A DNA stretch of 64,000 bases from a virus, in IMG/VR virus record IMGVR_UViG_3300025645_000048, positions 1 through 64,000 of that record, one strand, 5' to 3'. Below are positions 3,278 to 63,182 of this stretch, piece by piece. A model generated the notes under the pieces. That model ran no database searches. It saw nothing but the letters and a program-made list of their open reading frames with translations, and was not told the DNA's origin. The translations under genes were made by a program, and so were the position numbers. Each line of letters begins with the position of its first letter. The first letter of the stretch is position 1.

Positions 3278-3502
3278 ATGGACATCCGTAAGATTTCCAT
3301 AGGAGCAGATTACAAGTCTGGTGCCATGCATTATATTGTAGGGCAGAATGTTTTAGGAGGCTCTTATATTATTCATTTAATTCAACACGATGCAAATTCT
3401 AATTCATTTAAAATATGGATAGAAAAGAATCAAGAATTAATTATGTGGAAGGAGTTTAAAAACACAATGCCTATTTCTGTAGAATATAATCTAAACTTTT
3501 AA
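3278..3502 (+). CDS. Hypothetical 74-residue protein
   Basis: I do not recognise this protein. It is beta-rich, starting MDIRKISIGADYKSGAMHYI and ending PISVEYNLNF. Its last base is the first base of the next ATG (TAATG), so translation of the two genes is probably coupled. Confidence 0.6.
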   Translation: MDIRKISIGADYKSGAMHYIVGQNVLGGSYIIHLIQHDANSNSFKIWIEKNQELIMWKEFKNTMPISVEYNLNF

Positions 3503-4068
3503 TGCAGTCACCACATTCTTTCATAGTTCGACCAGTAAAAGGGAGAAGGTATGATAATATAAAAGACATTGGTGGTATTGACTTTATAACCAGTGTTTCT
3601 AAAGAAGACCATAAAGCATCTAATAGACATGCAGAAGTTGTGTCTACACCAGTAAATTATTCTGGAGATATAAAAAAAGGAGATATACTTTTAGTTCATC
3701 ACAATGTTTTTAAATTTTATTTTGACATGAAGGGTAGAGAAAAAAGTGGTAAAAGTTTTTTTAAAGATGATTTATTTTTTATTGACAATGATCAGTTTTT
3801 TTTATATAACAAAAAAGGTAAATGGTATGGTCATGACAAATATTGTTTTGTAAAACCTATTCCTAAAAAAGATTTTTATTTAAAAGGCATTGGTGTTAAG
3901 GAAGAACCCTTACATGGTGTAATAAAATACTCAAACAAACAATTAGAACAATTAGGTGTTAATGAAGGGGATGAAGTCTGTTTCACTCCTGATAGTGAAT
4001 ATGAGTTTTATGTTGATGATGAAAAATTATATCGTATGTTTACCAACAACATAGCATTAACATTATGA
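3502..4068 (+). CDS. Tandem GroES-like (co-chaperonin fold) protein
   Basis: This 188-residue protein reads as two GroES-like halves. The first (~5-103) starts SFIVRPV, has AEVVSTPVNYSGDIKKGDIL and ends in strands around FIDNDQFFLY. The second (~116-186) starts CFVKPI, has LHGVIKYS, then VNEGDEVCFTP and YEFYVDDEKLYRMF, much like the GroES C-terminal barrel (GD-V-F ... V-DEEYLIM). Shared elements are an opening strand with a Pro, a turn with GD, and an acidic-to-strand end. The clear GroES of this phage is at 51814-52071. By analogy with T4 gp31, this one could assist capsid-protein folding. Its position next to the terminase fits a virion-assembly role. The GroES assignment is by eye from motif order and is inference. 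Confidence 0.5.
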   Translation: MQSPHSFIVRPVKGRRYDNIKDIGGIDFITSVSKEDHKASNRHAEVVSTPVNYSGDIKKGDILLVHHNVFKFYFDMKGREKSGKSFFKDDLFFIDNDQFFLYNKKGKWYGHDKYCFVKPIPKKDFYLKGIGVKEEPLHGVIKYSNKQLEQLGVNEGDEVCFTPDSEYEFYVDDEKLYRMFTNNIALTL

Positions 4069-4343
4069 TGGATAGTAAAAAAATAAAAGAAGAAATAATT
4101 AAAGCTGGTGAAAAAGCAGTTATACAATTAATAAAAGTAGCAAAAGAAGATATTATTAAATACGAAAAAGATGATGAGTTGGCAGCTGACAGATTGAAAA
4201 ATGCAGCCGCTACAAAAAAACTTGCTATCTTTGATGCATTCGAGATATTAAAAAGAATTGAAGATGAAAAGCAATTAATAGATGGAATTGATATAGTAAA
4301 AAATAATACACCTAAAGGATTTGCAGAATCAAGATCAAAATAG
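4065..4343 (+). CDS. Putative small terminase subunit
   Basis: A 92-residue helical, charged protein directly upstream of the large terminase, overlapping the preceding gene by ATGA. It has long amphipathic helices (IKKAGEKAVIQLI-type, then AADRLKNAAATKKLAIFDAF). Position and composition fit a DNA-recognition terminase subunit, but no helix-turn-helix is convincing by eye, so the call is mainly from context. Confidence 0.5.
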   Translation: MMDSKKIKEEIIKAGEKAVIQLIKVAKEDIIKYEKDDELAADRLKNAAATKKLAIFDAFEILKRIEDEKQLIDGIDIVKNNTPKGFAESRSK

Positions 4344-4383
4344 TTTATATAGAAAATTGTACAAAATTGTGCCGAACAATGTT

Positions 4384-6570
4384 ATGGCAACAAAAAACAG
4401 AGCTCGTACATGGCTATATGGTTATAATCCTAAATATGATTTTGTAGTTATTTCTAAAACTGGGCAAATTGACCAAATAATAAATATAAATGGTTTAAAT
4501 ATAGCCTTACCTAAACCTCCCGCGCGCGTGCACACGCGAGACAAAAAAAACAAAGAACAGTACTGGGAGCCACATGTTTTACCTAAAGAATTAAAAAAAA
4601 TACAATCTATATTTCATTGGCATGAAACCCCACCTCAATTTAAAAATAAATGGGTAGATTATATAGAACAAGAGTTTGATAGAAGAGAAGAAGGTTTTTG
4701 GTTTATGAATAATGGGGAGCCAACCTATATAACTGGCACTCATTATATGTATCTGCAATGGACAAAAATTGATGTTGGTCATCCAGATTTTAGAGAAGCG
4801 AATAGACTTTTTTATATATTTTGGGAAGCATCTAAAGCTGACAAAAGAAGTTTTGGTATGTGTTATTTAAAAATAAGACGTTCAGGATTTTCTTTTATGA
4901 GTTCATGTGAAGGTGTTAACACTGCAACAATTACTAAAGATTCTAGAATAGGTATATTATCTAAAACTGGTGCCGATGCTAAAAAAATGTTTACAGATAA
5001 AATAGTTCCAATATCTAACAACTATCCGTTCTTTTTTAAACCCATACAAGATGGTATGGATAAACCTAAAACAGAATTAGCTTATCGAGTTCCTGCTTCT
5101 AAGATTACTAAAAAAAATATGTATGTTATAGATGAGGAAGAATTAGAAGGCTTAGATACAACCATTGACTGGAAGAATACATCTGACAATAGTTATGATG
5201 GTGAGAAGTTACAACTTCTACTTCATGATGAAAGTGGTAAATGGGAAAGGCCAGAAAACATATTAAACAACTGGAGGGTAACTAAAACATGTCTTAGACT
5301 AGGTAGTAAAGTTATAGGTAAGTGTATGATGGGTTCAACTTCTAATGCTCTAGATAAAGGGGGTGCAAATTTTAAATCCCTATATGAAGATTCTGATTGT
5401 ATGAAAAGAAATTCCAATGGACAAACAAAAAGTGGTTTGTATAATCTGTTTGTGCCTATGGAATGGAATATGGAAGGGTTTATTGACAGACATGGAATGC
5501 CAGTGTTAAAAAACCCACAAGAACCTATTATGGGTATAGATGGCGAATTAATATATCAAGGTGCAATTAATTATTGGGAGAATGAGGTAGAGTCATTAAA
5601 AAATGATCCAGATGCATTGAATGAATTTTATAGACAATTCCCTAGGTCTGAGTCTCATGCATTTAGAGATGAAAGTAAACAGTCATTATTTAATTTGACA
5701 AAAATATATCAACAAATAGATTACAATGACTCATTAATAATGCAACATCATGTAACTCAAGGTGGGTTTCATTGGAAAGATGGAATTAAAGATTCTAAGG
5801 TAATATGGAGCCCAAATAAAAGAGGAAGATTTTTTGTAACTTACATTCCAAAGGCTTCGCTTCAAAATAACGTTATAGAAAGAGGAGGGCAGAAACGACC
5901 AGGGAACGAACATCTTGGCTCGTTTGGTTGTGACTCTTATGATATTTCTGGAGTAGTTGTTGGGAAAGGTTCTAATGGATCATTACATGGGCTTACTAAA
6001 TTTAATATGGATGATGCACCTAGTAATGAATTTTTTCTTGAATATATAGCCAGACCACAAACAGCTGAGATATTTTTTGAAGAAGTCTTGATGGCTTGTG
6101 TTTTTTATGGTATGCCAATTTTATGTGAAAATAATAAACCACGTTTATTATATCATTTTAAAAATAGAGGATATAGAGGGTATTGTTTAAATAGACCAGA
6201 TAAAAAATATAATAAGTTGTCAAAAACAGAAAGAGAATTAGGTGGTATACCTAATAGCTCAGAAGATGTAAAACAATCTCATGCATCTGCAATTGAATCT
6301 TATATAGAAAAACATATAGGATTGGATTTAGAAGAAACATATAGAGATAAAGATATAATGGGAAGTATGTATTTTCAAAGAACTTTAGAAGATTGGGCAA
6401 AATTTGACATAAACAACAGAACACGATTTGATGCTGCTATTAGTTCAGGGTTAGCAATTATGTCTAATCAAAAACACCTATATACCCCAACTCAAAAACA
6501 ATCAAAAATAAGCATTAACTTTGCAAGATATAATAACAAAAGTTCAGTTAGTCAATTACTTAAAAGATGA
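4384..6570 (+). CDS. terL: Terminase large subunit (crAss-like)
   Basis: DNA-packaging motor with ATPase and nuclease domains. The stretch FWFMNNGEPTYITGTHYMYL, followed by DFREANRLFYIFWEA and LSKTGADAKKMFTDK, is characteristic of crAss-like TerL. The deviant Walker A is RRSGFSFMSS, and Walker B is LLLHDESGKWE with the catalytic acidic pair. Other motifs include STSNALDKGG and EFYRQFPRSESHAFRDES. The RNase H-like nuclease starts at GSFGCDSYD, with a further acidic residue in ILCENNKPR. I place the start at the ATG beginning MATKNRARTWLYGYN; a TTG at 4321 in the same frame would add 21 residues and overlap the preceding gene. A GC-rich patch lies near residue 48. The portal ATG overlaps the stop by 4 nt. 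Confidence 0.95.
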   Translation: MATKNRARTWLYGYNPKYDFVVISKTGQIDQIININGLNIALPKPPARVHTRDKKNKEQYWEPHVLPKELKKIQSIFHWHETPPQFKNKWVDYIEQEFDRREEGFWFMNNGEPTYITGTHYMYLQWTKIDVGHPDFREANRLFYIFWEASKADKRSFGMCYLKIRRSGFSFMSSCEGVNTATITKDSRIGILSKTGADAKKMFTDKIVPISNNYPFFFKPIQDGMDKPKTELAYRVPASKITKKNMYVIDEEELEGLDTTIDWKNTSDNSYDGEKLQLLLHDESGKWERPENILNNWRVTKTCLRLGSKVIGKCMMGSTSNALDKGGANFKSLYEDSDCMKRNSNGQTKSGLYNLFVPMEWNMEGFIDRHGMPVLKNPQEPIMGIDGELIYQGAINYWENEVESLKNDPDALNEFYRQFPRSESHAFRDESKQSLFNLTKIYQQIDYNDSLIMQHHVTQGGFHWKDGIKDSKVIWSPNKRGRFFVTYIPKASLQNNVIERGGQKRPGNEHLGSFGCDSYDISGVVVGKGSNGSLHGLTKFNMDDAPSNEFFLEYIARPQTAEIFFEEVLMACVFYGMPILCENNKPRLLYHFKNRGYRGYCLNRPDKKYNKLSKTERELGGIPNSSEDVKQSHASAIESYIEKHIGLDLEETYRDKDIMGSMYFQRTLEDWAKFDINNRTRFDAAISSGLAIMSNQKHLYTPTQKQSKISINFARYNNKSSVSQLLKR

Positions 6571-38452: not shown

Positions 38453-40864
38453 CTAAAAATCTATTTTTCCATTTTCTTCTATTTTCTGTGCATTTCTGAA
38501 TACTATCCATCTACCTCCTGCTTCTCTTCCTTCTTCAGGATCGCACTTGTGCTTGTACTGGTTGTAAGCAGTTAACCATTTATAGAACCTAGTCCTTGAC
38601 ACTGTCATTTTAGACTTAGGTGCAAAGTCTGGATTGTCTTCAATAAAATCAAAGTACAAGTCTTGTTTAAATATTTTTGTATTGGTTGCTAACATTTTGT
38701 TCAAAGGCATTCCATCCAGTATACCACACCATTCTATAAACTCATGACATGTTTCGGCAGATAGCCTTCTAATCTTCAAGTTAACAAATTCACTCTTAAC
38801 TAAACCATCTCTTAGGTAAAGCTGAAGACACTCAATCATAAAATTATCAAAAGCACACCACTCATCATCATTCCATTCTCCGAACATAAGTTTACCAAAC
38901 TCTTTTACTGGAGTATGCTCTCTAGTATAATGTTGTGCTAATTCTAACTCCCACTTTCTTCGTTCAAATGATGAGCCTTTACCTCTAATTGCATAGTTTG
39001 TAGTTATTGCAACCTTTGGAGATTTAGAAAAAGGAATCTTTATAGCATCTTTGTTTTTCTTTTCCAGTGTTAATCCCTCAGTAACAACTGAGAATAATCG
39101 TTCAAAGTTAAAATGCTTACTTACATCATCAAAACATAATATTTGTGTGTCTGCACTTACTAATTGATAGGCGAATGATTTCTCAAAATTAAAAGACTTA
39201 CCATCTATTACAACAACCTTCTTCATGTGTGACAAAGCATTTATAAATAAACCCTTACCAGTACCACCTTCAGGAGAATCAGATATTTGTTCATCATTAA
39301 GTATTGTAGCTGGGCTATACGATAAATTTTTCCATGCATGTAGCAAATATCCTATTGTAGACCTCATTGAATTGACTCTACTCTCATCCTTACCACATAT
39401 ATTAGTAATAAAACTTTTATAGTCACACTCATTAGACTCACATGAAACATAAGTTCTGTCTATTACATGGTCCTTCCAAACATATCCACCTAAATCTAGG
39501 TAGTCTATTGGTGTAACACTATTGTGTGTAACCTTTACTGCACCAGATTTATAATATAAGTATGCAGTATTCTTATTGTCTTCTATAAAATACACATCAA
39601 TAGAAGATAATAAAGTTAAAAACTCTTCTCTAAAATATCTTGTATGCTCTGCAAAGTAATTATAAACTGTCAAATCATCTATTTCTAACAAGTAGTTAAG
39701 AATAAAATCTTTAATCTCTTTTTCTGATGTGTGGTCTATAAGGTTGTTTGTAACCCTTACAAATACATAACTTCTACTGCCTTCAGGATTAAATTTATAA
39801 AAACCATTCTCTTCTAAGAAACTTTTAAAAGATATGTGTACAATTTTTATAACTCCTTTATCATTCTTTGTCCAGAACTTACTATTAGATTGCTCATCCT
39901 CGAGTCTGACTAAAACATTCTCTATTGTGCCGACCTCAACATCAGACTCTTCAAGCTGGGATCGGATTTCTTTTTTTGATACACCTCTTTTTAACTTCTC
40001 TCTAACTAAGTTAACCTTGTCTTCATCCTCATAATACTTTGTACCAAAGTTTTGTTTTTGTGCATATGCAGAAGATATAGTCCTCTTAATTTCTGTAGCA
40101 CTAAAATTTTGACTAGAAAAACTATTCATGACATACTCTGCTAGAGTCTGGTTAACACCAAAATCATTAAATGCTGCGGCCAATATATAGATGTTTTGAT
40201 TTCTCTGACCTTCTATCATTGGGTACTTCTTTTGCCACCACTTAGTTAAAATGTCAACTATTTTATTCTCATCTGTTACTGGTATGGTAGGGATATCTAC
40301 ATGTTTTATAACCTCTGTATACTCTTGCTCTACAATTTTATCCCATGTACTTGAATTAGCATTAACATAAAGTAATGGATCATAAGACTCATAACAAACT
40401 CTAGATATGTTTTTACAAGTTTTATCGAAATACTCTGAGTTTACATGATGTTGCAGACTTAAGAAATAATTTTTATGATTTTCTGGCTCTTTAGGAATTT
40501 TAACAACTGCCTTTAATCCTTTGCCACTAGGTGAAATAAACAAAGCAAATATATATTTGTTTTTACTTAGCCTTTCTTTTTCCTGAAGCATGTCTTTGTT
40601 AGTCTTATAACCATCAAAGTCTAAACATATTAAGCCACTGTGACTCTGTAGTGAGGAATCATTTCTTTTTGTGAATGTCCCACTGAAACAAATGGCCGGG
40701 AGTTGTTGTTTTAATAAGTTTCTTTTTTCTTTGTCTTTCTCAGCTCGGATTCTTTTAACTAAATCTTTTGATGAGCCTTCTTGTATTCTTTTTAAGATAA
40801 CATCGACCTTTCTATAGAATGGTTGTGCTGTTTCTTTAATATCTTTAAAGATGGTGATGTCCAT
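38453..40864 (-). CDS. VirE_N primase fused to SF3-type helicase
   Basis: An 803-residue replication protein. The N-terminal ~180 residues match the BT4734/VirE_N primase-like domain: ICLDFDGYK (acidic site, 81-84) and ISPSGKGLKAVVKIP (111-124). A linker domain follows, with a Primase-C-like helical part (~200-280). The C-terminal half is an SF3/D5-like helicase with Walker A SPEGGTGKG (530-538), Walker B ILCFDD (575-580) and a sensor-like KVAITTNYAIRGKG. It should prime and unwind phage DNA. It is the first gene after a 250-nt regulatory gap and leads the MTase-SNF2-VRR-NUC group. Its leader contains three AAATT repeats. Confidence 0.9.
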   Translation of the reverse strand: MDITIFKDIKETAQPFYRKVDVILKRIQEGSSKDLVKRIRAEKDKEKRNLLKQQLPAICFSGTFTKRNDSSLQSHSGLICLDFDGYKTNKDMLQEKERLSKNKYIFALFISPSGKGLKAVVKIPKEPENHKNYFLSLQHHVNSEYFDKTCKNISRVCYESYDPLLYVNANSSTWDKIVEQEYTEVIKHVDIPTIPVTDENKIVDILTKWWQKKYPMIEGQRNQNIYILAAAFNDFGVNQTLAEYVMNSFSSQNFSATEIKRTISSAYAQKQNFGTKYYEDEDKVNLVREKLKRGVSKKEIRSQLEESDVEVGTIENVLVRLEDEQSNSKFWTKNDKGVIKIVHISFKSFLEENGFYKFNPEGSRSYVFVRVTNNLIDHTSEKEIKDFILNYLLEIDDLTVYNYFAEHTRYFREEFLTLLSSIDVYFIEDNKNTAYLYYKSGAVKVTHNSVTPIDYLDLGGYVWKDHVIDRTYVSCESNECDYKSFITNICGKDESRVNSMRSTIGYLLHAWKNLSYSPATILNDEQISDSPEGGTGKGLFINALSHMKKVVVIDGKSFNFEKSFAYQLVSADTQILCFDDVSKHFNFERLFSVVTEGLTLEKKNKDAIKIPFSKSPKVAITTNYAIRGKGSSFERRKWELELAQHYTREHTPVKEFGKLMFGEWNDDEWCAFDNFMIECLQLYLRDGLVKSEFVNLKIRRLSAETCHEFIEWCGILDGMPLNKMLATNTKIFKQDLYFDFIEDNPDFAPKSKMTVSRTRFYKWLTAYNQYKHKCDPEEGREAGGRWIVFRNAQKIEENGKIDF

Positions 40865-41114
40865 TTGATGTCGATTTAATTTAATTTAATTTTAACTTTT
40901 ACTCTGTTATGTCAATTATGTCAATATTTAATAATATATAATAATATAAAAAAATATAATACTAATTGTTATTATAGTGGTCTATAGTAAATTTTTTTTG
41001 TCATTTGTCATTTGACAAAAGAGCAGAGAAGAGAAACCACACTCTTCTCATACCCTATTGTCTTGATTGTGAGTTAGTGTGGCTTTCGCCTCCTATTTCT
41101 CACACCCAAACACA
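40865..41114 (-). promoter_or_regulatory. Regulatory gap upstream of the primase operon
   Basis: There is no gene in these 250 nt. They hold a tandem 9-mer TATGTCAAT (40908-40925), long A/T runs, and an inverted repeat TTTGTCA-TT-TGACAAA (41004-41019) preceded by an extra TGTCA half-site at 40999. The core TGTCATTTGACA is identical to that in front of groEL. No perfect TAnnTTTG box is visible on the minus strand. Confidence 0.6.
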
Positions 41115-45082: not shown

Positions 45083-45721
45083 TTATACATTATTTGTTGA
45101 TTCTACAATCTCTGCACAAAGTTCTGATGGAATCTTACTTCTATCAAAGTAGCTTCCTCGACCTTGAGTTCCACTTTGACTTCCTCTTGGTGCAGATACA
45201 TGACAAGGATCTCCATTGTTACACATAGGTTTAGGAGTCCAATAAGTATTGTTGGTCCATATGTCTGTTGGCTTCATCCTATCATCTCCATACTGACAAT
45301 AGGTTAAAGTGTGTCGGACATGGTCAACATCATTCCAATGAGGAGACTTTCTCATCTTGCCTCTTGGATTCTCTATGTACCAAATCATATTAGGATTTTT
45401 CTTAAGGAGTATATCTATAATCTTCATAGTTCTCATTAAGATGTTTATTCCTTTGACTGCATTATTTGTCTTTGGCATAAACTCATGTCCTTTCTCCCAA
45501 TGATGTCCAATAGATGCTACAGAAAATGACTCACATGGTGGTGATGCCCATAACATATCTACTCTGTCAAAATTGATTGAACTAACCTGAAAATCCATAA
45601 TATCACAAACATAATTTGTGTTTGGGAAATCCACACAATCAGAAGAGAAGACTTTGTGTCCTCTCTTCTCTGCCTCTTTTCCTATGCTTCGGCTTCCACT
45701 AAAAAGTTCTACCACATTCAT
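45083..45721 (-). CDS. Short C5-methyltransferase-like protein
   Basis: A 212-residue protein with an AdoMet-binding loop ELFSGSRSIGKEAEKRGHKV, a WASPPCESFSVAS motif with a candidate nucleophile Cys63, and IENPRGKMRK in place of the ENV motif. The usual QxRxR motif and the large target-recognition domain are missing. It ends with a Gly/Ser-rich basic region. This small class is widespread in phages and its specificity is generally unknown. It is a second methyltransferase, not a copy of the first. It overlaps the upstream gene by 4 nt. Confidence 0.8.
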   Translation of the reverse strand: MNVVELFSGSRSIGKEAEKRGHKVFSSDCVDFPNTNYVCDIMDFQVSSINFDRVDMLWASPPCESFSVASIGHHWEKGHEFMPKTNNAVKGINILMRTMKIIDILLKKNPNMIWYIENPRGKMRKSPHWNDVDHVRHTLTYCQYGDDRMKPTDIWTNNTYWTPKPMCNNGDPCHVSAPRGSQSGTQGRGSYFDRSKIPSELCAEIVESTNNV

Positions 45722-48805: not shown

Positions 48806-48985
48806 TTATTTGTTAGGGTTAATGGTTACACAATAAGAAGAACTTCTTCCATCGGTTAATAATTCTTTAAATTTTAGACTTAATTCCTCTAGTCCATCTG
48901 TACTATTTTGAGGTTGAGTCTTAATCTCCATAGACACTAGGTTAGATAATTTTGCTAAGTCTGTAAGTGTTAGTCTTGTAATCAT
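48806..48985 (-). CDS. Hypothetical 59-residue protein
   Basis: It begins MITRLTLTDLAKLSNLVSME, followed by LEELSLKFKELLTDGRSSSY. It lies 5 nt from the next gene, with a CTATAACT-type leader shared by neighbours. Helical, not recognised. Confidence 0.5.
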   Translation of the reverse strand: MITRLTLTDLAKLSNLVSMEIKTQPQNSTDGLEELSLKFKELLTDGRSSSYCVTINPNK

Positions 48986-48987
48986 AG

Positions 48988-49071
48988 TTATAGGTTTAAA
49001 GGGTTAATGTTAATGTCTAATGCTTCACTCATTGTGAATACATTCTCGATAATAATAGTTAATTCATCCAT
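48988..49071 (-). CDS. First small gene of the minus-strand block (27 residues)
   Basis: The peptide starts MDELTIIIENVFTMSEALDI. I choose this ATG because the ~20 nt before it (AATTAAATTAAATACA) are the leader seen at genuine starts such as 11776. A longer frame starting at 49176 would give 62 residues but would cover the candidate promoter box and a leader hairpin. Function unknown. Confidence 0.4.
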   Translation of the reverse strand: MDELTIIIENVFTMSEALDININPLNL

Positions 49072-49108
49072 TGTATTTAATTTAATTAAGTTAGATATGA
49101 GAGGTAAG

Positions 49109-49125
49109 TCACTGACTATCAGTGA
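49109..49125 (-). other. Hairpin in the leader of the minus-strand block
   Basis: TCACTGA pairs with TCAGTGA around CTA. It lies ~40 nt upstream of the first small gene in the minus direction and could affect leader stability or termination. Confidence 0.45.
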
Positions 49126-49165
49126 GTTAGGTGTAAATTGTGTGTATAGTGTGTCTCTCATAGAG

Positions 49166-49173
49166 TAAATATA
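49166..49173 (-). promoter_or_regulatory. Weak promoter box for the minus-strand block
   Basis: On the minus strand it reads TATATTTA, one base off TAnnTTTG. It is the best candidate for transcription of the early small genes. Confidence 0.35.
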
Positions 49174-49176
49174 CAA

Positions 49177-49679
49177 TAAATATCTAATATATTACTAATA
49201 CTTTACTAATACTTTTAGACTAGGAGAAACAATTCTCTTTAATACTTATTTCAAATGATTACTATTTAATATTTAATTGACTAATCATAATCAAGTGTGA
49301 AATGATAGTTGAGTTTTGTTTGTGTTTTGTTTAGTTGTAATTCAGTCGGTGAGGGGGTTAAGGGAAGGCTCTCTGTCTCTTCTCTTTTGTTTAACCAATT
49401 GAAGAGGGAAGGCTACAGATAGTGGAGTAGGAGTTATGTATACACCTAATTAACAAGGGATGTGAGGAGTCACACCTACCTAGTACCTACCTATGTCATA
49501 AGGGGTGGAGGAATTCTGAAAAAATCTGAAAAAAAAAGTTGAAATCCTTTTTTAATCAAAAAAAAATAATGACTTTCTGTGGGGGTGGGGTGTGTGTATA
49601 AGCACTAATAACCCTCAACCTCTATATATCTAATAACTCAAAAAAATTTTCAGTATCTTTACTATCTAAATTTATAGCT
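49177..49679. other. Divergent non-coding region
   Basis: I see no gene. It holds direct repeats AGGGAAGGCT (49361-49370 and 49405-49414), a tandem ACCTACCTA (49474-49482, 49485-49493), a G/T-rich run with GGGGGTGGGG near 49580, and A/T runs. It separates minus-strand early genes from plus-strand genes and is the most plausible place for an origin or master promoter region, though nothing proves that. Confidence 0.5.
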
Positions 49680-49877
49680 ATGAATAAATCTGATTACATT
49701 GATGGGTTGTACGTTAAGAACGGAAGACTTATAAATGAACGACCAAACAGTATGACTGGGATTCAAAAGGCAGTATCTATTAAACGATCAGTAACTAACG
49801 ATCGTAAGATAAATCAAGTTGCAGAAGCGATACAGTTAGCTGAAAATAAAAAGAACTTTAACGAACTTAATTTCTAA
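49680..49877 (+). CDS. Hypothetical 65-residue protein
   Basis: A basic helical protein: MNKSDYIDGLYVKNGRLINE, then MTGIQKAVSIKRSVTNDRKI and AEAIQLAENKK. A TATCTTTA box, one base off consensus, lies 18 nt upstream. It is the first rightward gene after the divergent region, so it may be an early regulator, but I do not recognise it. Confidence 0.55.
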   Translation: MNKSDYIDGLYVKNGRLINERPNSMTGIQKAVSIKRSVTNDRKINQVAEAIQLAENKKNFNELNF

Positions 49878-50133
49878 AAAATTTTCTGTTTTCTTTTTGT
49901 TTGAATTAAGGGGTTTAGAAATAAATCTCTTTTTTTTTGCAAAGTGTATGATAACTGACACAACTATGACAACTAAAATTTAAAATCGACACAACCTAAC
50001 TAACTGATTACTAGTACTTTTATTATTATAATTATTAATAATGTCGATTATGTCGAAAAAAATACTATTATAAAAATAAAAAAAAAGTAAAGTATAGTAA
50101 AATATATATAGAGTGTATAGTAGCAAAAAACAT

Positions 50134-50145
50134 TGTCATTTGACA
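50134..50145. promoter_or_regulatory. Operator-like inverted repeat TGTCATTTGACA
   Basis: A perfect TGTCA-TT-TGACA repeat directly adjoins the TTTTG of the groEL -33 region. The same 12-mer is at 41006-41017. A bound protein here would block the polymerase. Confidence 0.6.
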
Positions 50146-50147
50146 TT

Positions 50148-50176
50148 TTGCTTTTTCACAAATTATACTATCTTTG
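50148..50176 (+). promoter_or_regulatory. groEL promoter, TTG-N18-TATCTTTG
   Basis: TTG at 50148-50150 and TATCTTTG at 50169-50176 match the Bacteroidota -33/-7 elements. The leader then runs through AATTTAATTTAAT to the ATG. Confidence 0.7.
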
Positions 50177-50203
50177 TTTAGTAATCTAATTTAATTTAAT
50201 CTA

Positions 50204-51817
50204 ATGAGTGCACAAGGCTATATACCCAAAGACCTAACTTTTGATGAAGAAGGTCGTAAACAATTAATCCAAGGAATTACTGCAATATCTAAAGCTGTAA
50301 AAAGTACGCTAGGCCCACGCGGTCAGACTGTACTCATTGAATCACCCGATCATGTTGGTGGAATCACAGTGACTAAGGATGGTGTGACTGTAGCCAAGTC
50401 TATATTCCTAGACAACCCAATAGAAAACCTAGCCATACAAATGATGAAGGATGCAGCAACTAGAACTGCTAACTCTGCGGGTGATGGGACAACTACTGCA
50501 ATAGTATTAACTGAAGCGATAGTAAATGCAGGACAAGAACTATTAAAAGAAAACCATAACATCACCGAGGTGATTAAAGCAATCAACAAGCATTGTGATA
50601 AAATAATTAGTATACTTGAAAAAGATGCCAAGAAGATTACTCCTGAAACTCTACTAGATGTTGCAACAATATCTGCCAACAACGACAAAGAGATAGGCCA
50701 GATAATATCTGATGCCTATAAAAAAGTTGGTGCCAATGGTATAGTTACTGTAGAAAAGTCACAGAACCACGAGACCTATGCCGAGGTGACTAATGGTATA
50801 AAAGTAGATCGAGGATACTCCTCACCTATGTTTTTGAACAATCATCGTAAAGACGAGTGTGTGCTTGAAGATGTCTTGGTCTTAGTGTGTGACATAACAA
50901 TTGACAATATTCTGCAAATAGAGAATGTACTCAAACCAATCATACAACAAAACAAGAAACTACTAATCATCGCACCATGTGCTGACAATGTGGTCAACAC
51001 TCTTGCGGCCAATGTGGTTCGTAATAATTTAAAAGTATGTACTGTTCTGCCTCCACAGTTTGGCTACAAAAGTCACGAGCTGATGCAAGATATAGCATTC
51101 GCGGTCGGTGCAAAAATATTCTCAGAACAAACTGGTGACGACTTAAGTCTTATAAACATGAACGACCTTGGTCATGTAGATAAAATAATAGTTGGTAAAG
51201 ACTCCAGTGTGTTAATCAAGGACGCAGACATAAGCGAGGCAACACAAAACAGAATAGAAGAGCTGAAGGAACAACAACAAAATATGACAATTAAAAGCGA
51301 TAAAGACTTTATAAACGAGAGAGTGGCAAGTCTAGCTGGTGCCATTGGTTGTATATATGTCGGAGCTAATAGCGACGTGGAGCAAAAAGAAAAATTTGAC
51401 CGAGTCGATGACTCGGTGTGTGCAGTTCGTAGCGCCTTGCAAGAAGGCATTATTCCCGGCGGAGGACTGGCACTATTTCATTGTGCTAGGTTTTTAAAAG
51501 AATATATTAAGTCATACAAGCCATTTGAGAACGAACCCAACATACAAGTAGCTGGTGAGATATTAGCCCAAGCAATACAAGTGCCATTAAAACAAATAAT
51601 TATTAATTCAGGTCAAGATGTGACTGAAATAATTAGTAAATTTCAACACATGGGAGGTAATATAGGATACGATGTTAAGAATGAAGATGTTGATGACATG
51701 TATGTGTTAGGTGTAATCGATCCACTTAAAGTAACTAAGAATGCACTGGTCAATGCAGTGTCTGTAGCCACAACAATACTATCAACTAATGCAATAATAA
51801 CACATAAACGAGCATGA
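50204..51817 (+). CDS. groEL: Phage-encoded chaperonin GroEL
   Basis: This 537-residue group I chaperonin subunit forms a folding cage with GroES. Equatorial ATP-site motifs are intact: TLGPRGQTVLIE, VTKDGVTVAKSI (Asp59), SAGDGTTTAIVL (Asp94) and the late RVDDSVCAVR with IIPGGGLALFH. The apical domain has weaker similarity but keeps the GYSSPMFLNN and AVGAKIFSEQTG segments. The Gly-Gly-Met C-terminal tail of bacterial GroEL is missing; it ends IITHKRA. Intact catalytic Asp residues suggest a working ATPase. The groES stop-start overlap makes an operon. It probably folds phage proteins such as the capsid or giant internal proteins. A cellular origin of the window is unlikely given the phage genes on both sides. 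Confidence 0.97.
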   Translation: MSAQGYIPKDLTFDEEGRKQLIQGITAISKAVKSTLGPRGQTVLIESPDHVGGITVTKDGVTVAKSIFLDNPIENLAIQMMKDAATRTANSAGDGTTTAIVLTEAIVNAGQELLKENHNITEVIKAINKHCDKIISILEKDAKKITPETLLDVATISANNDKEIGQIISDAYKKVGANGIVTVEKSQNHETYAEVTNGIKVDRGYSSPMFLNNHRKDECVLEDVLVLVCDITIDNILQIENVLKPIIQQNKKLLIIAPCADNVVNTLAANVVRNNLKVCTVLPPQFGYKSHELMQDIAFAVGAKIFSEQTGDDLSLINMNDLGHVDKIIVGKDSSVLIKDADISEATQNRIEELKEQQQNMTIKSDKDFINERVASLAGAIGCIYVGANSDVEQKEKFDRVDDSVCAVRSALQEGIIPGGGLALFHCARFLKEYIKSYKPFENEPNIQVAGEILAQAIQVPLKQIIINSGQDVTEIISKFQHMGGNIGYDVKNEDVDDMYVLGVIDPLKVTKNALVNAVSVATTILSTNAIITHKRA

Positions 51818-52071
51818 TCCCTATAAATAAATACATTATTATCGACACAATTGAAGAGGAGATAAAGACTGACTCTGGGTTGTTATTGTCTGCAAACGAC
51901 ATAAAAGATTTTAGATATAAAAAAGGTAAGGTGGTGAAGCCTGGGACCAATGTAAGTGATATAGAAGAAGGGGACCTAATATACTATGACAAGATGTCTG
52001 GATATACTATGATAATTAACGACAAACAGTATACTATAATTCTTGAGAGAGATGTCGTTGTTGTTTTATAA
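51814..52071 (+). CDS. groES: Phage-encoded co-chaperonin GroES
   Basis: An 85-residue GroES-like lid. It has the N-terminal strand INKYIIIDTIEEE, a mobile loop KTDSGLLLSANDI (corresponding to the GGIVL loop that binds GroEL), KKGKVVKPG, then IEEGDLIYYDKMSGYTMIIN and ERDVVVVL. It is about 10 residues shorter than bacterial GroES, with a reduced roof. It overlaps groEL by ATGA. Its 3' end overlaps the convergent MarR-like gene by 38 nt. Confidence 0.93.
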   Translation: MIPINKYIIIDTIEEEIKTDSGLLLSANDIKDFRYKKGKVVKPGTNVSDIEEGDLIYYDKMSGYTMIINDKQYTIILERDVVVVL

Positions 52072-52519
52072 AATCATTCATCTCAATAATCGTATTACGG
52101 TAGACCTTATCCATGTACGATGCATCATTTCTAAATAAAGGGTTAGAGTGTGCAGTCTCCGCAATCTCCTCACCATTTAATTTTTTATAAATCATTGTTA
52201 TGATGCGCTTGGCCTTGTAAGTAAGCTCATAAAGTGTAGCCTTATTACCCTCACGTTTTCTCCAAACATGAATCCAGTCGTCACGAAGAAGTCTAGCAAA
52301 CCTAGGATACTCCCAACTCATAACCTCTTCATACTTTTTAAACTGTTCTTTGTTGAATATATCCTCACTGTATAAAAACAATAACATCTCAAGATCAGGT
52401 GTAGATAATTTGTACTTAGCCTTAACCCAATACCTAATGACTCTCCAGTATTTTAAATAGTTGTGGGAAGGTGTAATTCTTGATGTTGCCTTGCGCTGAT
52501 AGACGCCTTTAGATTTCAT
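52034..52519 (-). CDS. MarR-like winged-helix regulator
   Basis: A 161-residue protein with an N-terminal helical region (NYLKYWRVIRYWVKAKYKLS), then TPDLEMLLFLYSEDIFNKEQ, a recognition-helix region SWEYPRFARLLRDDWIHVWR, and a wing REGNKATLYELTYKAKRIIT. The helix-turn-helix plus beta-wing order is that of MarR-type regulators. It overlaps the groES 3' end antisense and is divergent from the tiny-gene cluster, so it may control either. It is one candidate reader of the TGTCATTTGACA or TATATTT/AAATATA palindromes; that link is inference. Confidence 0.7.
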   Translation of the reverse strand: MKSKGVYQRKATSRITPSHNYLKYWRVIRYWVKAKYKLSTPDLEMLLFLYSEDIFNKEQFKKYEEVMSWEYPRFARLLRDDWIHVWRKREGNKATLYELTYKAKRIITMIYKKLNGEEIAETAHSNPLFRNDASYMDKVYRNTIIEMNDFIKQQRHLSQEL

Positions 52520-52534
52520 TAAATTAAAGTTAGT

Positions 52535-52550
52535 ATATTTGTAAATATAA
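52535..52550 (+). promoter_or_regulatory. Promoter box inside a palindrome
   Basis: TATATTTG (52535-52542) is the promoter box for the tiny-gene cluster, and the 16 bp TATATTT-GT-AAATATA form a palindrome. It lies between the MarR-like gene and the cluster, so it is a candidate operator for that regulator. Confidence 0.55.
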
Positions 52551-52570
52551 TTATTTTAATAACAAAAATT

Positions 52571-52666
52571 ATGGCTAAGAAAAAAGTAGTAAAAAAAGCA
52601 GCTCCAAAAAAAGTTGCAGTCAAATCGCCAAGCGTAAAGAAAGAAAGTAAAAGAGTTATTATCTAA
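52571..52666 (+). CDS. Lys-rich 31-residue peptide
   Basis: A histone-tail-like peptide, MAKKKVVKKAAPKKVAVKSP and so on. The composition (over 40% Lys, with Ala/Val) resembles small DNA-condensing peptides. First gene of the cluster after its promoter. Confidence 0.6.
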   Translation: MAKKKVVKKAAPKKVAVKSPSVKKESKRVII

Positions 52667-52668
52667 TA

Positions 52669-52794
52669 ATGGCTTTAAATAATTTCGTATCTTATTTGTC
52701 GAAAGGTAAAAAGAAAAGACCTGGTGTTCATAGTAAGAATGCTTCGCGTAGTCAAAATGCTTACAAGAAGGCTTATCGTGGACAAGGTAGATAA
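52669..52794 (+). CDS. Tiny basic protein of the GQG(R/K) family
   Basis: A 41-residue basic protein with SKGKKKRPGVHSKNASRSQN and AYKKAYRGQGR. The protein at 63546-63680 has the same pattern (KKRKGIHAK ... YFKKYKGQGK). I recall such peptides in marine phages including small ssDNA ones. A DNA- or virion-binding role is plausible from charge. Confidence 0.65.
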   Translation: MALNNFVSYLSKGKKKRPGVHSKNASRSQNAYKKAYRGQGR

Positions 52795-52819
52795 AGTTTA
52801 ATATTTTAAAAATATAATT

Positions 52820-52972
52820 ATGCCAACAGTAAAATCAAAATCTGGTAATAAAGTATTTCCATACAATGCAGTAGGTAAAGCACAGGCTCACCAATATGCA
52901 AAAATGAATGGAGGTAAAGTAAAAAATAATCCAAACTACGGTATGGAGAAAAAAATGAACTCATCATATTAA
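52820..52972 (+). CDS. Hypothetical 50-residue basic protein
   Basis: It starts MPTVKSKSGNKVFPYNAVGK, then AQAHQYAKMNGGKVKNNPNY. The KxFPYN-x-GKAQA pattern is one I associate with tiny proteins of marine phages. Function unknown. Confidence 0.55.
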   Translation: MPTVKSKSGNKVFPYNAVGKAQAHQYAKMNGGKVKNNPNYGMEKKMNSSY

Positions 52973-52976
52973 TATT

Positions 52977-53159
52977 ATGGCTAAAAAAGATTACAACAGT
53001 ATCAATTTTAAAAACAAAGACATTGATAAAATTATATCAAAAAGAAAACCAGTAAAAAAAATTAAAAGTCATTTATTACCACAAGGGGTTAAAAAAACTG
53101 CATGGACAACAGTTGGATTAAATACATATCCTAAAAATATGGATCACTTGAAAAAATAA
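52977..53159 (+). CDS. Hypothetical 60-residue basic protein
   Basis: A Lys/Ile-rich protein: MAKKDYNSINFKNKDIDKII, then HLLPQGVKKTAWTTVGLNTY. Not recognised; very basic, as are its neighbours. Confidence 0.55.
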   Translation: MAKKDYNSINFKNKDIDKIISKRKPVKKIKSHLLPQGVKKTAWTTVGLNTYPKNMDHLKK

Positions 53160-53162
53160 ATT

Positions 53163-53276
53163 ATGGCTAGAAAAAAGAAAATGAAGAACCCATGTTGGAA
53201 AGGTTTTATTGCATATGGAATGAAAATGAAGAACGGAAAAGAAGTTCCAAATTGTGTTCCTAAGAAAAAGAAATAA
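53163..53276 (+). CDS. Tiny marine-phage protein (NPCWKG...VPNCVP family)
   Basis: A 37-residue basic protein with NPCWKGFIAYGMKMKNGKEV followed by PNCVP. This signature is familiar from many marine cyanophage and pelagiphage genomes. Two conserved Cys residues could bind metal. Function unknown. Confidence 0.75.
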   Translation: MARKKKMKNPCWKGFIAYGMKMKNGKEVPNCVPKKKK

Positions 53277-53278
53277 TT

Positions 53279-53554
53279 ATGCCTATAGCAAGAACCACAG
53301 GCAAAGGAGGTAACTATAGGTCCACATCATCTGGTGCGGGTATGACTGCTAGAGGGGTGGCTGCATATAAAAGAGCCAATCCTGGATCAAACCTAAAAAC
53401 TGCGGTTACTGAAAAGAAACCTAGCAAAATGAGGTCAAAAAGAAGAAAGTCTTATTGCTCTAGGTCTGCTGGTCAAATGCGTATGCACAATATTAATTGT
53501 TCTAAGACTCCAGAAAAAAGAATTTGTGCAGCTCGTAGACGTTGGAGATGTTAA
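53279..53554 (+). CDS. DUF6321-like basic protein
   Basis: A 91-residue protein with GMTARGVAAYKRANPGSNLK, TAVTEKKPSK, then KRRKSYCSRSAGQMRMHNIN and CAARRRWRC. This is a marine-phage family, DUF6321-like, with an Arg/Lys-rich C-terminal half and conserved Cys residues. Probably DNA- or virion-associated, but the role is unknown. Confidence 0.75.
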   Translation: MPIARTTGKGGNYRSTSSGAGMTARGVAAYKRANPGSNLKTAVTEKKPSKMRSKRRKSYCSRSAGQMRMHNINCSKTPEKRICAARRRWRC

Positions 53555-53564
53555 ATAAAAAATT

Positions 53565-53906
53565 ATGGCTAAGAAAAAAAATGATCCTGAATATATTAGA
53601 CTTCGTTCTTCAACCAAGTCTAATCAAAAAATGGGTAAGAAAAAGAAAAGTAAAACTGTTTCTGAATCCTCTAATACTCCCGCTTATGGCAATAAGCCAA
53701 ATGTTTCATACAGCAAAACTACAACAAAAACTAAAGGAAATAAAACTACACAAAAAAGTAAATTTAAACAGGTTAGCGAAAACAATGGTGAATTTACTAA
53801 GTATGTTTCCAGAACCAGAAATGGTAATAGAAGAGTTAGAACAAAAAAAATATCTGCAAGTAGGGCGGAAGGAATAGCTAGAAGGTTGAAGAAAAAATAT
53901 AAATAA
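53565..53906 (+). CDS. Lys/Thr/Ser-rich 113-residue protein
   Basis: A low-complexity basic protein, mostly Lys, Thr, Ser and Asn (KKKKSKTVSESSNTPAYGNK) with a C-terminal TKKISASRAEGIARRLKKKY helix. The composition is histone-like. An overlapping frame at 53542-53877 is less plausible because it is Leu/Lys-rich with no leader, while this frame has AAATTATGGC before its ATG. Confidence 0.6.
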   Translation: MAKKKNDPEYIRLRSSTKSNQKMGKKKKSKTVSESSNTPAYGNKPNVSYSKTTTKTKGNKTTQKSKFKQVSENNGEFTKYVSRTRNGNRRVRTKKISASRAEGIARRLKKKYK

Positions 53907-53914
53907 AATATTAG

Positions 53915-53922
53915 TATATTTG
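53915..53922 (+). promoter_or_regulatory. Candidate promoter box TATATTTG
   Basis: TATATTTG lies 20 nt before the ATG at 53943 and gives the second half of the tiny-gene cluster its own start. Confidence 0.55.
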
Positions 53923-53942
53923 TATATATAAATTTTTAAATT

Positions 53943-54140
53943 ATGAAAAAACAAGGATATAATTCAAGACTAGATGAGTCTTTAGGTGCTAAGCATGGGA
54001 AAAAATCTCAATCTTATAAAGATCGTAGAGATGAATCAAAAGCTATGTCTAAAAAAGAATATGGACATTCTTACGGAGGTGACTCTGGAATGTCATACAG
54101 ACATTCATCTAGTTGGAAAACTCACGGTCATTTAAAATAA
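53943..54140 (+). CDS. Conserved tiny marine-phage protein
   Basis: A 65-residue hydrophilic protein: MKKQGYNSRLDESLGAKHGK, then QSYKDRRDESKAMSKKEYGH and SYRHSSSWKTHGHLK. The NARLDESLG...QSYKDRRDES pattern occurs in many uncultured marine phages as I recall. Function unknown. Its stop overlaps the next ATG (TAATG). Confidence 0.65.
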   Translation: MKKQGYNSRLDESLGAKHGKKSQSYKDRRDESKAMSKKEYGHSYGGDSGMSYRHSSSWKTHGHLK

Positions 54141-54295
54141 TGGCTAAGAACTTTATACAAAATGTTTTTCAAGGAGCAAAACGAAGAGGAACTCTTGGTG
54201 ATTGCACTGGGAAAAAATTTGGCAGCAAGAGTTGTCCAGTAGGAAGTAAAAAATATAATTTTGCAAAAACAATGCGCAAAATAAATAAAAAATAA
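54140..54295 (+). CDS. Hypothetical 51-residue basic protein
   Basis: It starts MAKNFIQNVFQGAKRRGTLG, then DCTGKKFGSKSCPVGSKKYN. The two Cys and basic residues resemble its neighbours. I use the ATG overlapping the upstream stop, not a longer frame that would overlap by 28 nt. Confidence 0.55.
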   Translation: MAKNFIQNVFQGAKRRGTLGDCTGKKFGSKSCPVGSKKYNFAKTMRKINKK

Positions 54296-54453
54296 TGGCT
54301 AAGAAAAAAATCAAATTAGTTAATAAAAAAATAACTAAACAAGATCCTCCTACAGCAGGCTTCGTAGAATGGCATGATAGATCACAGGAAATCAAAGATA
54401 GAATGGCTGCAAGACAGGTTGCATTAGCAAAAGAGTTTAAAAAGAAAAAATAA
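54295..54453 (+). CDS. Hypothetical 52-residue protein
   Basis: A charged helical protein: MAKKKIKLVNKKITKQDPPT, then FVEWHDRSQEIKDRMAARQV. It overlaps the upstream stop by TAATG and ends directly before the next gene. Not recognised. Confidence 0.5.
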   Translation: MAKKKIKLVNKKITKQDPPTAGFVEWHDRSQEIKDRMAARQVALAKEFKKKK

Positions 54454-55647: not shown

Positions 55648-55923
55648 ATGAAAAAATTTAATCCACAAAGTAAATTTAGTTTATCAATAAAAGAACTTAT
55701 AACTGGAGCACTTGGATTAGGTTCATTATTAGCTGTTTTTTTTACTCTTAAAGCTGATATTGCATTGGCAAAACAATTGCCATTACCAGAAGTCACGAAA
55801 ATTGAATTGTCTTATAAAGATGAGTTAATAAAAAATGATTTCGAAAATATGAAAGAAGATATTTCTGACATAAAAGATGACATTAAATACATAAAAGATT
55901 ATATAATAAAAAATAAAAAATAA
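55648..55923 (+). CDS. Membrane-anchored coiled-coil protein (lysis cassette 1)
   Basis: A 91-residue protein with a basic N-terminus, a transmembrane segment (ITGALGLGSLLAVFFTLKAD) and a periplasmic or cytosolic coiled coil (MKEDISDIKDDIKYIKDYII). Its design is like that of the next gene, though the sequences differ. Position in the lysis cassette suggests a spanin- or holin-like accessory. Confidence 0.65.
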   Translation: MKKFNPQSKFSLSIKELITGALGLGSLLAVFFTLKADIALAKQLPLPEVTKIELSYKDELIKNDFENMKEDISDIKDDIKYIKDYIIKNKK

Positions 55924-55925
55924 CC

Positions 55926-56237
55926 ATGGCAACTAAGATTGGTGAAGATACTAACGTACAGCTTGATTTAAAAACAATCGGCATAATTATAGCAGGAACA
56001 ATTTCTTTAGCTAGTATGTGGTTTACTTTACAAAGTGATATATCAGAATTACAAAACAAAATAGATAATTTTTCTGGAGATGAGTTTGTACAACAAATGG
56101 AGTTTAAATTTAAAGATGAGTTAATTCGTTCTAACATAGTTACAATTGATAAGCTTACTGAAAATATAAAAGAAGATGTTGAAGAAAATAAAGAAGCAAT
56201 AAAAGATTTAGAAGATAAAGTTTATAAAAAAAGATGA
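55926..56237 (+). CDS. Membrane coiled-coil protein, paralogue of 62409-62717
   Basis: This 103-residue protein starts MATKIGEDTNVQLDLKTIGI, then has one membrane helix (IIIAGTISLASMWFTL) and a long charged coiled coil with SGDEFVQQMEF and KEDVEENKEAIKDLEDKVYK. The protein in the second lysis cassette has almost the same sequence in both helix and coil. The ATG of the thioredoxin-like gene overlaps its end by 4 nt. A holin-accessory or spanin-like role is plausible. Not proven. Confidence 0.75.
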   Translation: MATKIGEDTNVQLDLKTIGIIIAGTISLASMWFTLQSDISELQNKIDNFSGDEFVQQMEFKFKDELIRSNIVTIDKLTENIKEDVEENKEAIKDLEDKVYKKR

Positions 56238-56554
56238 AAAATTTAATATGTGTTTTTTTTGTGTTTTTTTTGTGTTTTATAAATGCACAAGATTTAACAT
56301 TAATGCATATAAATGCAAAATGGAATCAACCTAATAATTTTGATTTAAAGGGCATACAGAATTGTAAAGTGAGATATGCATTATTAGAAGATCAAGTCCC
56401 ATCACTCAAAGCACAAATAAAATCTGTTCCAATAATAATTTTATTAGACAAAAATGGAAAACCAAGAGGACAATGGGTTGCTAATTTAAGTTTTAAAATA
56501 ACAGCGACTAAAGAAGAAATACAAGATAGAGTAAATATTATTGCTAAAGAATAG
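56234..56554 (+). CDS. Secreted thioredoxin-like protein lacking CxxC (cassette 1)
   Basis: A 106-residue protein with a signal peptide (MKNLICVFFVFFLCFINA, cleavage after Ala18 expected) and a thioredoxin-like core: LTLMHINAKWNQPNN, VRYALLEDQVPSLKAQIKS, cis-Pro segment VPIIILLDKNGKPRG. Where thioredoxin has WCxxC there is WNQP, so redox chemistry should be absent. It is probably periplasmic. It has a paralogue in lysis cassette 2 and is always next to the membrane coiled-coil gene, which suggests a lysis partner or regulator. I infer the fold by eye. Confidence 0.7.
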   Translation: MKNLICVFFVFFLCFINAQDLTLMHINAKWNQPNNFDLKGIQNCKVRYALLEDQVPSLKAQIKSVPIIILLDKNGKPRGQWVANLSFKITATKEEIQDRVNIIAKE

Positions 56555-56558
56555 TTAA

Positions 56559-56972
56559 ATGAGAAACATAGATAAAATTATTGTCCACTGTTCAGCAACT
56601 CCAAAAGGAAAACATTTCAGTGCTGATACTATAAAGAAATGGCATTTAGAAAGAGGCTTCTCAGATATTGGTTATCATTATATTGTTCATATTGATGGAA
56701 GTATGGAGTATGGAAGAATGGTTAACATTCAAGGTGCTCATTGTAAAGGACAAAATAAATCTAGCATAGGTGTATGTTATATTGGGGGGATGGATGAAGA
56801 TATGAATGAATGGGAAGACACAAGAACTGAAGAACAAAAATCTACACTTTTAGATTTATTAAATTTATTAAAAAAATTTCATCCAAATGCAGAAATATAT
56901 GGTCACAGAGACTTTTCTACAAAAGCATGTCCTAGTTTCGATGCAAAGGAAGAATATAAATATTTAACATGA
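56559..56972 (+). CDS. N-acetylmuramoyl-L-alanine amidase endolysin
   Basis: A 137-residue single-domain zinc amidase of the T7 lysozyme type that cuts the bond between muramic acid and L-alanine. The motifs are IIVHCSAT (His10), GYHYIVHIDG (catalytic Tyr region ~39-41), GAHCKGQNKSSIGVCYIG (His61), IYGHRDFS (His116) and TKACPSFD (Lys122, Cys124). Zn ligands are probably His10, His116 and Cys124. No signal peptide or cell-wall binding domain is present. It overlaps the holin gene by 4 nt. Confidence 0.95.
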   Translation: MRNIDKIIVHCSATPKGKHFSADTIKKWHLERGFSDIGYHYIVHIDGSMEYGRMVNIQGAHCKGQNKSSIGVCYIGGMDEDMNEWEDTRTEEQKSTLLDLLNLLKKFHPNAEIYGHRDFSTKACPSFDAKEEYKYLT

Positions 56973-57376
56973 AAAAATTATTTGCAAAAATGTTTGGTGG
57001 AGCTGGAGTCTCTATCGCAGAAAAACTAGGAGGAGTAGTTGATAAGTTTGTAAGGACTAAAGATGAAAAGGCGGAGTTTGAAAAACAAATGACAGAGATT
57101 TTTATGTCTCATGAATTGAGTCTAGAAAAAGAAATCACATCACGTCATGCCGCAGACATGCAATCGGATTCATGGCTTTCGAAGAATATACGTCCTCTAC
57201 TTACTATTTTTAGCTTAATATTATATACACTATTTGCTATATCAGATGGCAATATAGGAGAATTTAATATAGCAAATCAGTATGTAGATCTGCTTGGACA
57301 AATTGTAATAATGAGTCTAGGTTTTTATTTTACTTCTCGAGGTATTGAAAAAACTGCAAAGATTTGGAAGAAATAA
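56969..57376 (+). CDS. Holin-like membrane protein (GTA 3TM type), cassette 1
   Basis: A 135-residue protein with an amphipathic N-terminus (KKLFAKMFGGAGVSIAEKLG), a long charged helix, and two strong membrane spans: DSWLSKNIRPLLTIFSLILY and VDLLGQIVIMSLGFYFTSRG. It matches the GTA_holin_3TM family (SDSWLS-x-NIRP motif). It is encoded directly after the amidase and should open the inner membrane for lysis. A close copy ends cassette 2. Confidence 0.85.
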   Translation: MKKLFAKMFGGAGVSIAEKLGGVVDKFVRTKDEKAEFEKQMTEIFMSHELSLEKEITSRHAADMQSDSWLSKNIRPLLTIFSLILYTLFAISDGNIGEFNIANQYVDLLGQIVIMSLGFYFTSRGIEKTAKIWKK

Positions 57377-62287: not shown

Positions 62288-62405
62288 AAAGAAACAAGGA
62301 GAAAAACAGAAGGACTATATGATGCGATGTGTACCTCAATTGATGAAATACCATCCAGAAAAACAAGCTGTAGCAATTTGCTATAAAGAATACAGAAACA
62401 AATAA
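62274..62405 (+). CDS. Tiny basic marine-phage protein
   Basis: A 43-residue protein: MPIPKKKQGEKQKDYMMRCV, then PEKQAVAICYKEYRNK. This pattern (P-P-K-GE-K-x-D-F-x-x-RC ... KQAVAICY) occurs in small proteins of many marine phages as I recall. Function unknown. Confidence 0.65.
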   Translation: MPIPKKKQGEKQKDYMMRCVPQLMKYHPEKQAVAICYKEYRNK

Positions 62406-62408
62406 AAA

Positions 62409-63041: not shown

Positions 63042-63182
63042 ATGGAAACTATAAAACATTTACTGGGTTTTTGTGGGGAGCATTTGCATCCTAACATTTT
63101 TACAATTACAATAACATTAATTATTTTAAAATTAATTTATGAAAAATATATTAGCAAAACTATTTGGGGGAGCTGGAGGTAG
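63042..63182 (+). CDS. Small membrane protein overlapping holin gene
   Basis: A 46-residue protein with HPNIFTITITLIILKLIYEK as its single span. It overlaps the holin start by 44 nt in another frame, as lysis genes often do. There is no equivalent in cassette 1. Possibly a holin regulator or antiholin; inference. Confidence 0.45.
   Translation: METIKHLLGFCGEHLHPNIFTITITLIILKLIYEKYISKTIWGSWR

Follow-up and report, generated by a model that had tools for sequence, protein, structure and literature searches.

The window analyzed here comprises 64,000 nucleotides (positions 1 to 64,000) of the IMG/VR virus record IMGVR_UViG_3300025645_000048. It contains an intact groEL frame on the plus strand that is followed by groES, and the two genes overlap in an ATGA at 51814–51817. 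The locus and its associated elements are as follows.

41006..41017, either strand: second exact copy of TGTCATTTGACA, upstream of a leftward primase gene (38453–40864); also found in relative L005
50134..50145, either strand: inverted repeat TGTCATTTGACA (TGTCA-TT-TGACA), a possible operator, ending 2 bases before the TTG
50148..50150, plus strand: TTG, a possible -33 element, seen directly 18 bp before the -7 box
50169..50176, plus strand: TATCTTTG, Bacteroidota-type -7 promoter box (TAnnTTTG), 35 nt before the groEL start
50204..51817, plus strand: groEL, 537-aa group I chaperonin with an intact ATP site, rewired apical groove and eroded inter-ring contacts, without a GGM tail
51814..52071, plus strand: groES (GroES1), 85 aa, overlapping groEL in the ATGA; retains the mobile loop S-G-L-L-L but has a shortened roof loop
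52034..52519, minus strand: convergent 161-aa gene, a possible winged-helix regulator, whose end overlaps groES by 38 bp

GroEL matches Pfam PF00118 over the whole protein with 220.7 bits (cut-off 34.3) and phrog_5725 with 444.6 bits. The full-length profile match and the ATP-site residues D52, D87 and D398 (E. coli numbering) identify it as a group I chaperonin, and its AlphaFold model aligns with GroEL across 516 columns and shows nothing beyond the expected fold. GroES1 scores 47.4 bits against PF00166 (cut-off 21.1), which identifies it as a GroES, and 56.9 bits against phrog_3188. The gene pair had been described in an earlier note made from the DNA letters, and both the frames and the Pfam and PHROG matches agree with that description.

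A homolog of the 161-aa gene is found 3' of groES in relatives whose sequence covers that stretch, and in MW202828.1 it is annotated as 'repressor protein'. The protein has weak matches to SarA/Rot and phrog_12817, and it is a candidate regulator. Directly past the groES/regulator pair there is a row of short lysine-rich ORFs (52820–54453); one of them, at 53279–53554, has matches to the C-terminal ends of numerous phage families of unknown function.

The promoter TTG-N18-TATCTTTG is present as the earlier note claimed. The TAnnTTTG box is found in the 80 bp preceding groEL at 31 of 34 loci, far above the chance expectation of about 2, and is positioned 28–40 nt before the gene. A -33 element sought upstream of groEL in the relatives shows no clear or consistent conservation. 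The palindrome had been read as an operator. Two exact copies of TGTCATTTGACA are present where about 0.04 would be expected in the podovirus part of the record, and the repeat is exact in the 96% relatives and has one mismatch in an 84% relative. Beyond these it is degenerate or absent, with TGTCA half-sites at most in some relatives. The operator reading is thus not supported by conservation past close relatives, and we retain it as a weak hypothesis.

The virus and its ownership of the operon

A scan of virus contigs identified 31 GroEL loci at 55–96% identity, and the closest GroELs are all in phage contigs. A recognizable groES follows groEL in 28 related phage loci, mostly with the same convergent 161-aa gene after it; most of the remaining loci, without a visible groES, are truncated where their contig stops. 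The nearest bacterial GroEL, by comparison, is 40% identical, with Flavobacteriaceae leading. In a quick tree of 77 rows the window GroEL lies within a phage-only set of 21 (SH-aLRT 99) that has a stem of 1.14 changes per column; the long branches of Dulem 41, phi14:2, Calle and elemo are unsurely placed in this tree. The GroELs of pv27 and 2.275.O group with E. coli and that of DAC16 with Bacteroidales, and these placements among bacteria indicate that phages gained GroEL more than once.

The stretch 48982–52813 is collinear with a 96% relative (DNA identity 92.5%). Additionally, MW202828.1 (Podoviridae sp. ctfjg026, Manatee Spring), a complete genome of 60,850 bp, has the same gene order with phage genes on both sides. 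A host origin or a local chimera at groEL was rejected on the phage matches, the tree and the collinearity: other phages did take GroEL from host relatives (pv27, 2.275.O, DAC16) and the record is itself a composite of two phages further right, but with bacterial identities reaching only 40%, phage genes flanking groEL in MW202828.1 and many contigs, and a collinear groEL block, a recent capture of a host chromosomal groE operon or a join to host DNA in assembly is extremely improbable. By these sequence comparisons the operon belongs to the phage, as the earlier note had proposed pending a database search and a tree; the host flanks or chimera that would have spoken against it are excluded by the phage neighbours and the collinear block.

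The same note had considered phage GroEL to be rare, which is incorrect, as 271 of 50,697 phage records have a GroEL match and 207 of these hold at least 80% of the protein. The true crAss-like phage phi14:2 is among the records with a match. Nishimura 2017 (PMC5332604) gives GroEL in 36 genomes of a phi38:1-related marine Bacteroidetes-phage group, to which the window probably belongs. GroEL and GroES have also been reported for Maribacter phage Panino (PMC11590407), and a literature search on elemo plus GroEL returned nothing useful. GroEL-GroES in this virus group is a known but little-studied trait.

The identity of the virus is fixed by the large terminase subunit, listed here with its neighbors and the likely capsid gene.

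3502..4068, plus strand: GroES2, 188 aa, a predicted GroES-like co-chaperonin with two tandem domains, encoded shortly before the terminase; phrog_13932
4065..4343, plus strand: 92-aa ORF between GroES2 and TerL; MW202828.1 has a homolog (57% identity) in the corresponding position
4321..6570, plus strand: large terminase subunit; phrog_6681, 597 bits
10231..11694, plus strand: likely major capsid protein, 487 aa, the proposed client; phrog_13704 'virion structural protein', 329.5 bits, and gene order after the portal

The terminase is 72% identical to that of MW202828.1 and 44% to that of Elemovirus. The terminase and portal families (phrog_6681, phrog_6547) are shared with crAss001 and phi14:2. 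However, the capsid family phrog_13704 was not found in crAss001 or phi14:2, and the nearest named relatives (Elemovirus, Pachyviridae and Pervagoviridae) are all outside Crassvirales. With these flavophages the window shares all three families (terminase, portal and capsid) as well as a GroES2 gene ahead of the terminase. The virus, which infects marine flavobacteria, is thus a podovirus among the flavophages, on the Elemovirus/Pervagoviridae side. Full membership in Crassvirales was rejected on the differing capsid family, and the earlier label 'crAss-like' is appropriate for the shared terminase and portal families but not for the capsid or the nearest relatives; 'distant sister of crAss-like phages' is accurate. 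The 92-aa ORF has no family match and from its position we would guess it to be the small terminase subunit.

Among the other genes in the window, a 2992-aa ORF (25828–34806) without a PHROG match contains the zinc-protease-like motif HEVFH, and its product is probably an internal virion protein. Two genes resemble cytosine methyltransferases; the one at 37191–38381 matches phage DNA methyltransferase families, and the one at 45083–45721 was judged from sequence only.

A second terminase (L034:7382–8587), a second portal (L035:1402–3441; both in record positions 64001–89305) and a tape-measure-like gene in the last 25 kb show that the 89,305-bp record is a composite of two phages. The junction of the podovirus with a siphovirus-like phage falls within about 60–64.6 kb and leaves the groEL locus unaffected. 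The stretches 62397–63036 and 63139–63546 are 78% and 71% identical to 55908–56553 and 56969–57376, respectively. These repeats lie at the apparent start of the second phage and may mark a site of recombination or mis-assembly. A related 105-kb contig, G015, also has two terminases and two copies of GroES2.

Residue changes in GroEL and GroES1

We took the groove and inter-ring positions compared here from general knowledge of GroEL and of the SR1 mutant, and we take the apical groove to be the surface that binds substrate and GroES. All 20 ATP-site columns that are conserved in 79 bacteria are kept in the phage clade, which confirms the ATP motifs recognized in the earlier note. In the apical groove the changes L234E, E238K, A241I, V263A and V264A are fixed (25/25 phage clade sequences), E257N and A258V are nearly fixed, and Y203 is replaced by L or M, while Y199, F204, T261 and N265 are kept. 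L234 and E238 are still present in Elemovirus GroEL, and the rewired groove is therefore a peculiarity of the clade of the window. The ring-ring contacts K105, A109, R452, E461, S463 and V464 are conserved in bacteria and hypervariable in the phage clade. The mean entropy of this set is 2.73, compared with 0.95 +/- 0.44 for comparably conserved equatorial positions, and none of 5000 random draws was as high.

The GGM tail is missing throughout the clade, as had been noticed for the window protein, which ends ...IITHKRA; a Met-rich end is kept by a few other phages. In GroES1 the mobile loop with its hydrophobic tripeptide is retained, the motif SG[LI]LL being kept across the clade. The roof loop is indeed short, as the earlier note observed. 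However, the GroES of Bacteroidota is already shorter than that of E. coli, and the phage protein has lost only about 5 residues more. T4 gp31 provides a functional precedent for an altered lid that serves a large capsid protein (PMC5780408).

Our reading of these patterns is that ATP use is under strong selection, that the binding surface may have been re-specialized, and that the double-ring contact appears to have been released from selection. The sequence signature of a double ring with 1:2 contacts is lost in the phage clade, and the hypervariability of the contact residues predicts a single-ring GroEL. Single rings have been described for the chaperonins of OBP and AR9, and for that of EL with ATP (PMC9598537). 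The EL chaperonin forms a double ring without nucleotide, and its rings meet in a 1:1 contact instead of the 1:2 contact of GroEL (PMC7185714). Changed contact residues are therefore also compatible with a different double-ring contact, which counts against the single ring. A double ring with a redesigned contact, working as in the host on phage clients, would fit the match to GroEL in fold and length throughout, and EL demonstrates that such a contact can evolve (PMC7185714). However, a shared new contact should be newly conserved, and the positions are instead hypervariable within the clade; we consider this arrangement possible but somewhat unlikely, and favor the single ring.

A groES gene is linked to groEL in 28 related loci, and its product would bind GroEL as a detachable co-chaperonin. 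The presence of groES does not prove encapsulation, since the three characterized phage chaperonins (EL, OBP and AR9) work without a co-chaperonin (PMC9598537). It is conceivable, although we regard it as unlikely, that GroES1 and GroES2 both serve host GroEL and that the phage GroEL is only a holdase that prevents aggregation. The EL chaperonin acts in this manner, preventing aggregation without encapsulation and without interacting with E. coli GroES (PMC7185714), and the apical residues through which E. coli GroEL binds GroES have been replaced in the phage protein. However, the groove changes are fixed rather than decayed, with Y199, F204, T261 and N265 remaining, and across the clade GroES1 has retained the mobile-loop motif and is still encoded downstream of groEL. 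A phage GroEL that is closed by GroES1 is more consistent with this pattern.

A predicted tandem co-chaperonin by the terminase

GroES2 matches phrog_13932 'co-chaperonin GroES' with 79.7 bits. Its AlphaFold model, of middling confidence (pLDDT 78.5), consists of two beta-rich halves. Each has a low-confidence loop (residues ~20–40 and 121–135) at the place of the GroES mobile loop, and in most members a motif of the GG[IV] type lies in the first loop. The top Foldseek match is 7ekq_R, a chain of 194 residues that aligns over 207 columns with E 5.7e-5, followed by 7ekq_Q (1e-3) and then by many single GroES chains; the two 7ekq chains are chloroplast Cpn20 and Cpn23 (Chaperonin 23). In the model GroES2 thus has two GroES-fold domains arranged head to tail. 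The window copy scores 12.1 bits against PF00166, below the cut-off of 21.1, and homologs in phi13:2 (31.9 bits) and Calle (28.0 bits) exceed it. A single-protein sequence search of the PDB gave no match, a profile search of the PDB had a best E of 0.6, and the hhalign probability was 29%. GroES2 is called GroES-like from its family model and the fold comparison, not from a Pfam match of its own.

GroES2 is present in all searched records with this terminase except phi14:2, and accordingly in 17 of the 18 that have both this terminase and GroEL. The complete 72-kb genome of phi13:2 contains GroES2 and no GroEL. GroES2 is therefore independent of a phage GroEL, and GroEL-GroES1 is an additional module. 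From the model, GroES2 is predicted to be a second co-chaperonin, which the earlier note overlooked; Elemovirus and Calle likewise have a second co-chaperonin before the terminase.

Gp31 of T4 is a single-domain protein, unlike the two-domain GroES2. Both gp31 and RB49 CocO are phage GroES-like lids that act on host GroEL in capsid folding (PMC9598537), and GroES2 similarly lies with head genes. The best structural match of the modeled GroES2 is chloroplast Cpn20, which also has two GroES-like domains head to tail. At 14–15% identity common ancestry is not implied, and the two tandem arrangements are likely the result of independent duplication. In green algae Cpn10 and Cpn20 combine into mixed lids that contain seven GroES domains (PMC5780408), and GroES1 and GroES2 might build such a lid on the phage GroEL. 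Nearly all searched phages of the group with GroEL and the terminase region carry a tandem GroES alongside the single one, and the resemblance of GroES2 to Cpn20/Cpn23 is in line with this arrangement. However, the two genes sit in different modules, and the occurrence of GroES2 in phi13:2 shows that it can act without a phage GroEL. We consider a mixed lid doubtful, and prefer separate roles for the two proteins.

Proposed function and relationship to known chaperonins

The phage system resembles the GroEL-GroES of Bacteroidota and E. coli in fold, length, ATP-site residues, the pairing of the genes and the GroES mobile loop. It differs in the gene order groEL-groES, the replaced residues of the apical groove, the loss of ring-ring contacts, the absence of a GGM tail and the shorter GroES roof. 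Elemovirus, Panino (PMC11590407) and Callevirus also encode both GroEL and GroES, but their GroELs are only 37–38% identical to that of the window, and in Calle cpn10 precedes groEL. The GroELs of the group 2 marine Bacteroidetes phages are related to Cellulophaga-phage GroEL (PMC5332604); the relevant passages give the presence of GroEL and a tree, whereas the co-chaperonins and residue changes come from the present analysis. EL gp146, OBP gp246 and AR9 gp228 are phage GroEL homologs with known single-ring forms (PMC7185714, PMC9598537, PMC5934643). However, they work without a co-chaperonin, while the window has GroES genes and a GroEL nearer in sequence to those of bacteria.

The observations taken as a whole are probably best explained by a group I chaperonin system of the phage itself, long maintained in a clade of flavobacterial podoviruses. 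Host RNA polymerase would transcribe groEL-groES from the host-type promoter box. The phage GroEL would hydrolyze ATP and capture a restricted set of phage proteins through its modified apical groove, the usual bacterial surface being gone, and the 85-aa GroES1 would close it with a retained mobile loop and a shortened roof. Because the ring-ring contacts are lost, GroEL would most likely function as one ring, or its two rings would come apart. GroES2 would be expressed along with the late genes and may be a morphogenesis lid on host GroEL like T4 gp31, and it possibly acts on the phage GroEL too.

The earlier note envisaged a complete folding machine for huge internal and capsid proteins. A protein of 2992 aa is too large for the GroEL cage, so the proposal is not supported for the internal protein, and the 53-kDa capsid protein, which is small enough for a cage, would be the more plausible client.

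Three features missed in the earlier note are added by this analysis, namely the tandem GroES2 and, in GroEL, a rewired apical groove and an eroded interface between the rings. It is a long shot that these combine into a single-ring GroEL with a rewired groove under a mixed lid of single and tandem GroES, specialized for the virion and parallel to chloroplast Cpn10/Cpn20. If true, the virus would possess a complete folding machine whose layout is new and arose independently of that of the chloroplast. The phage chaperonins studied to date (EL, OBP, AR9) are from jumbo phages and function without a co-chaperonin, whereas in the flavophages GroEL is accompanied by GroES and a tandem GroES. Because relatives are in culture (Elemovirus with Flavobacterium BAL314 as host, Calle with Cellulophaga and Panino with Maribacter), what the virus gains from its own GroEL is testable. 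So too are the possibilities that a natural single-ring GroEL may work with GroES and that the groove changes may narrow the range of clients.
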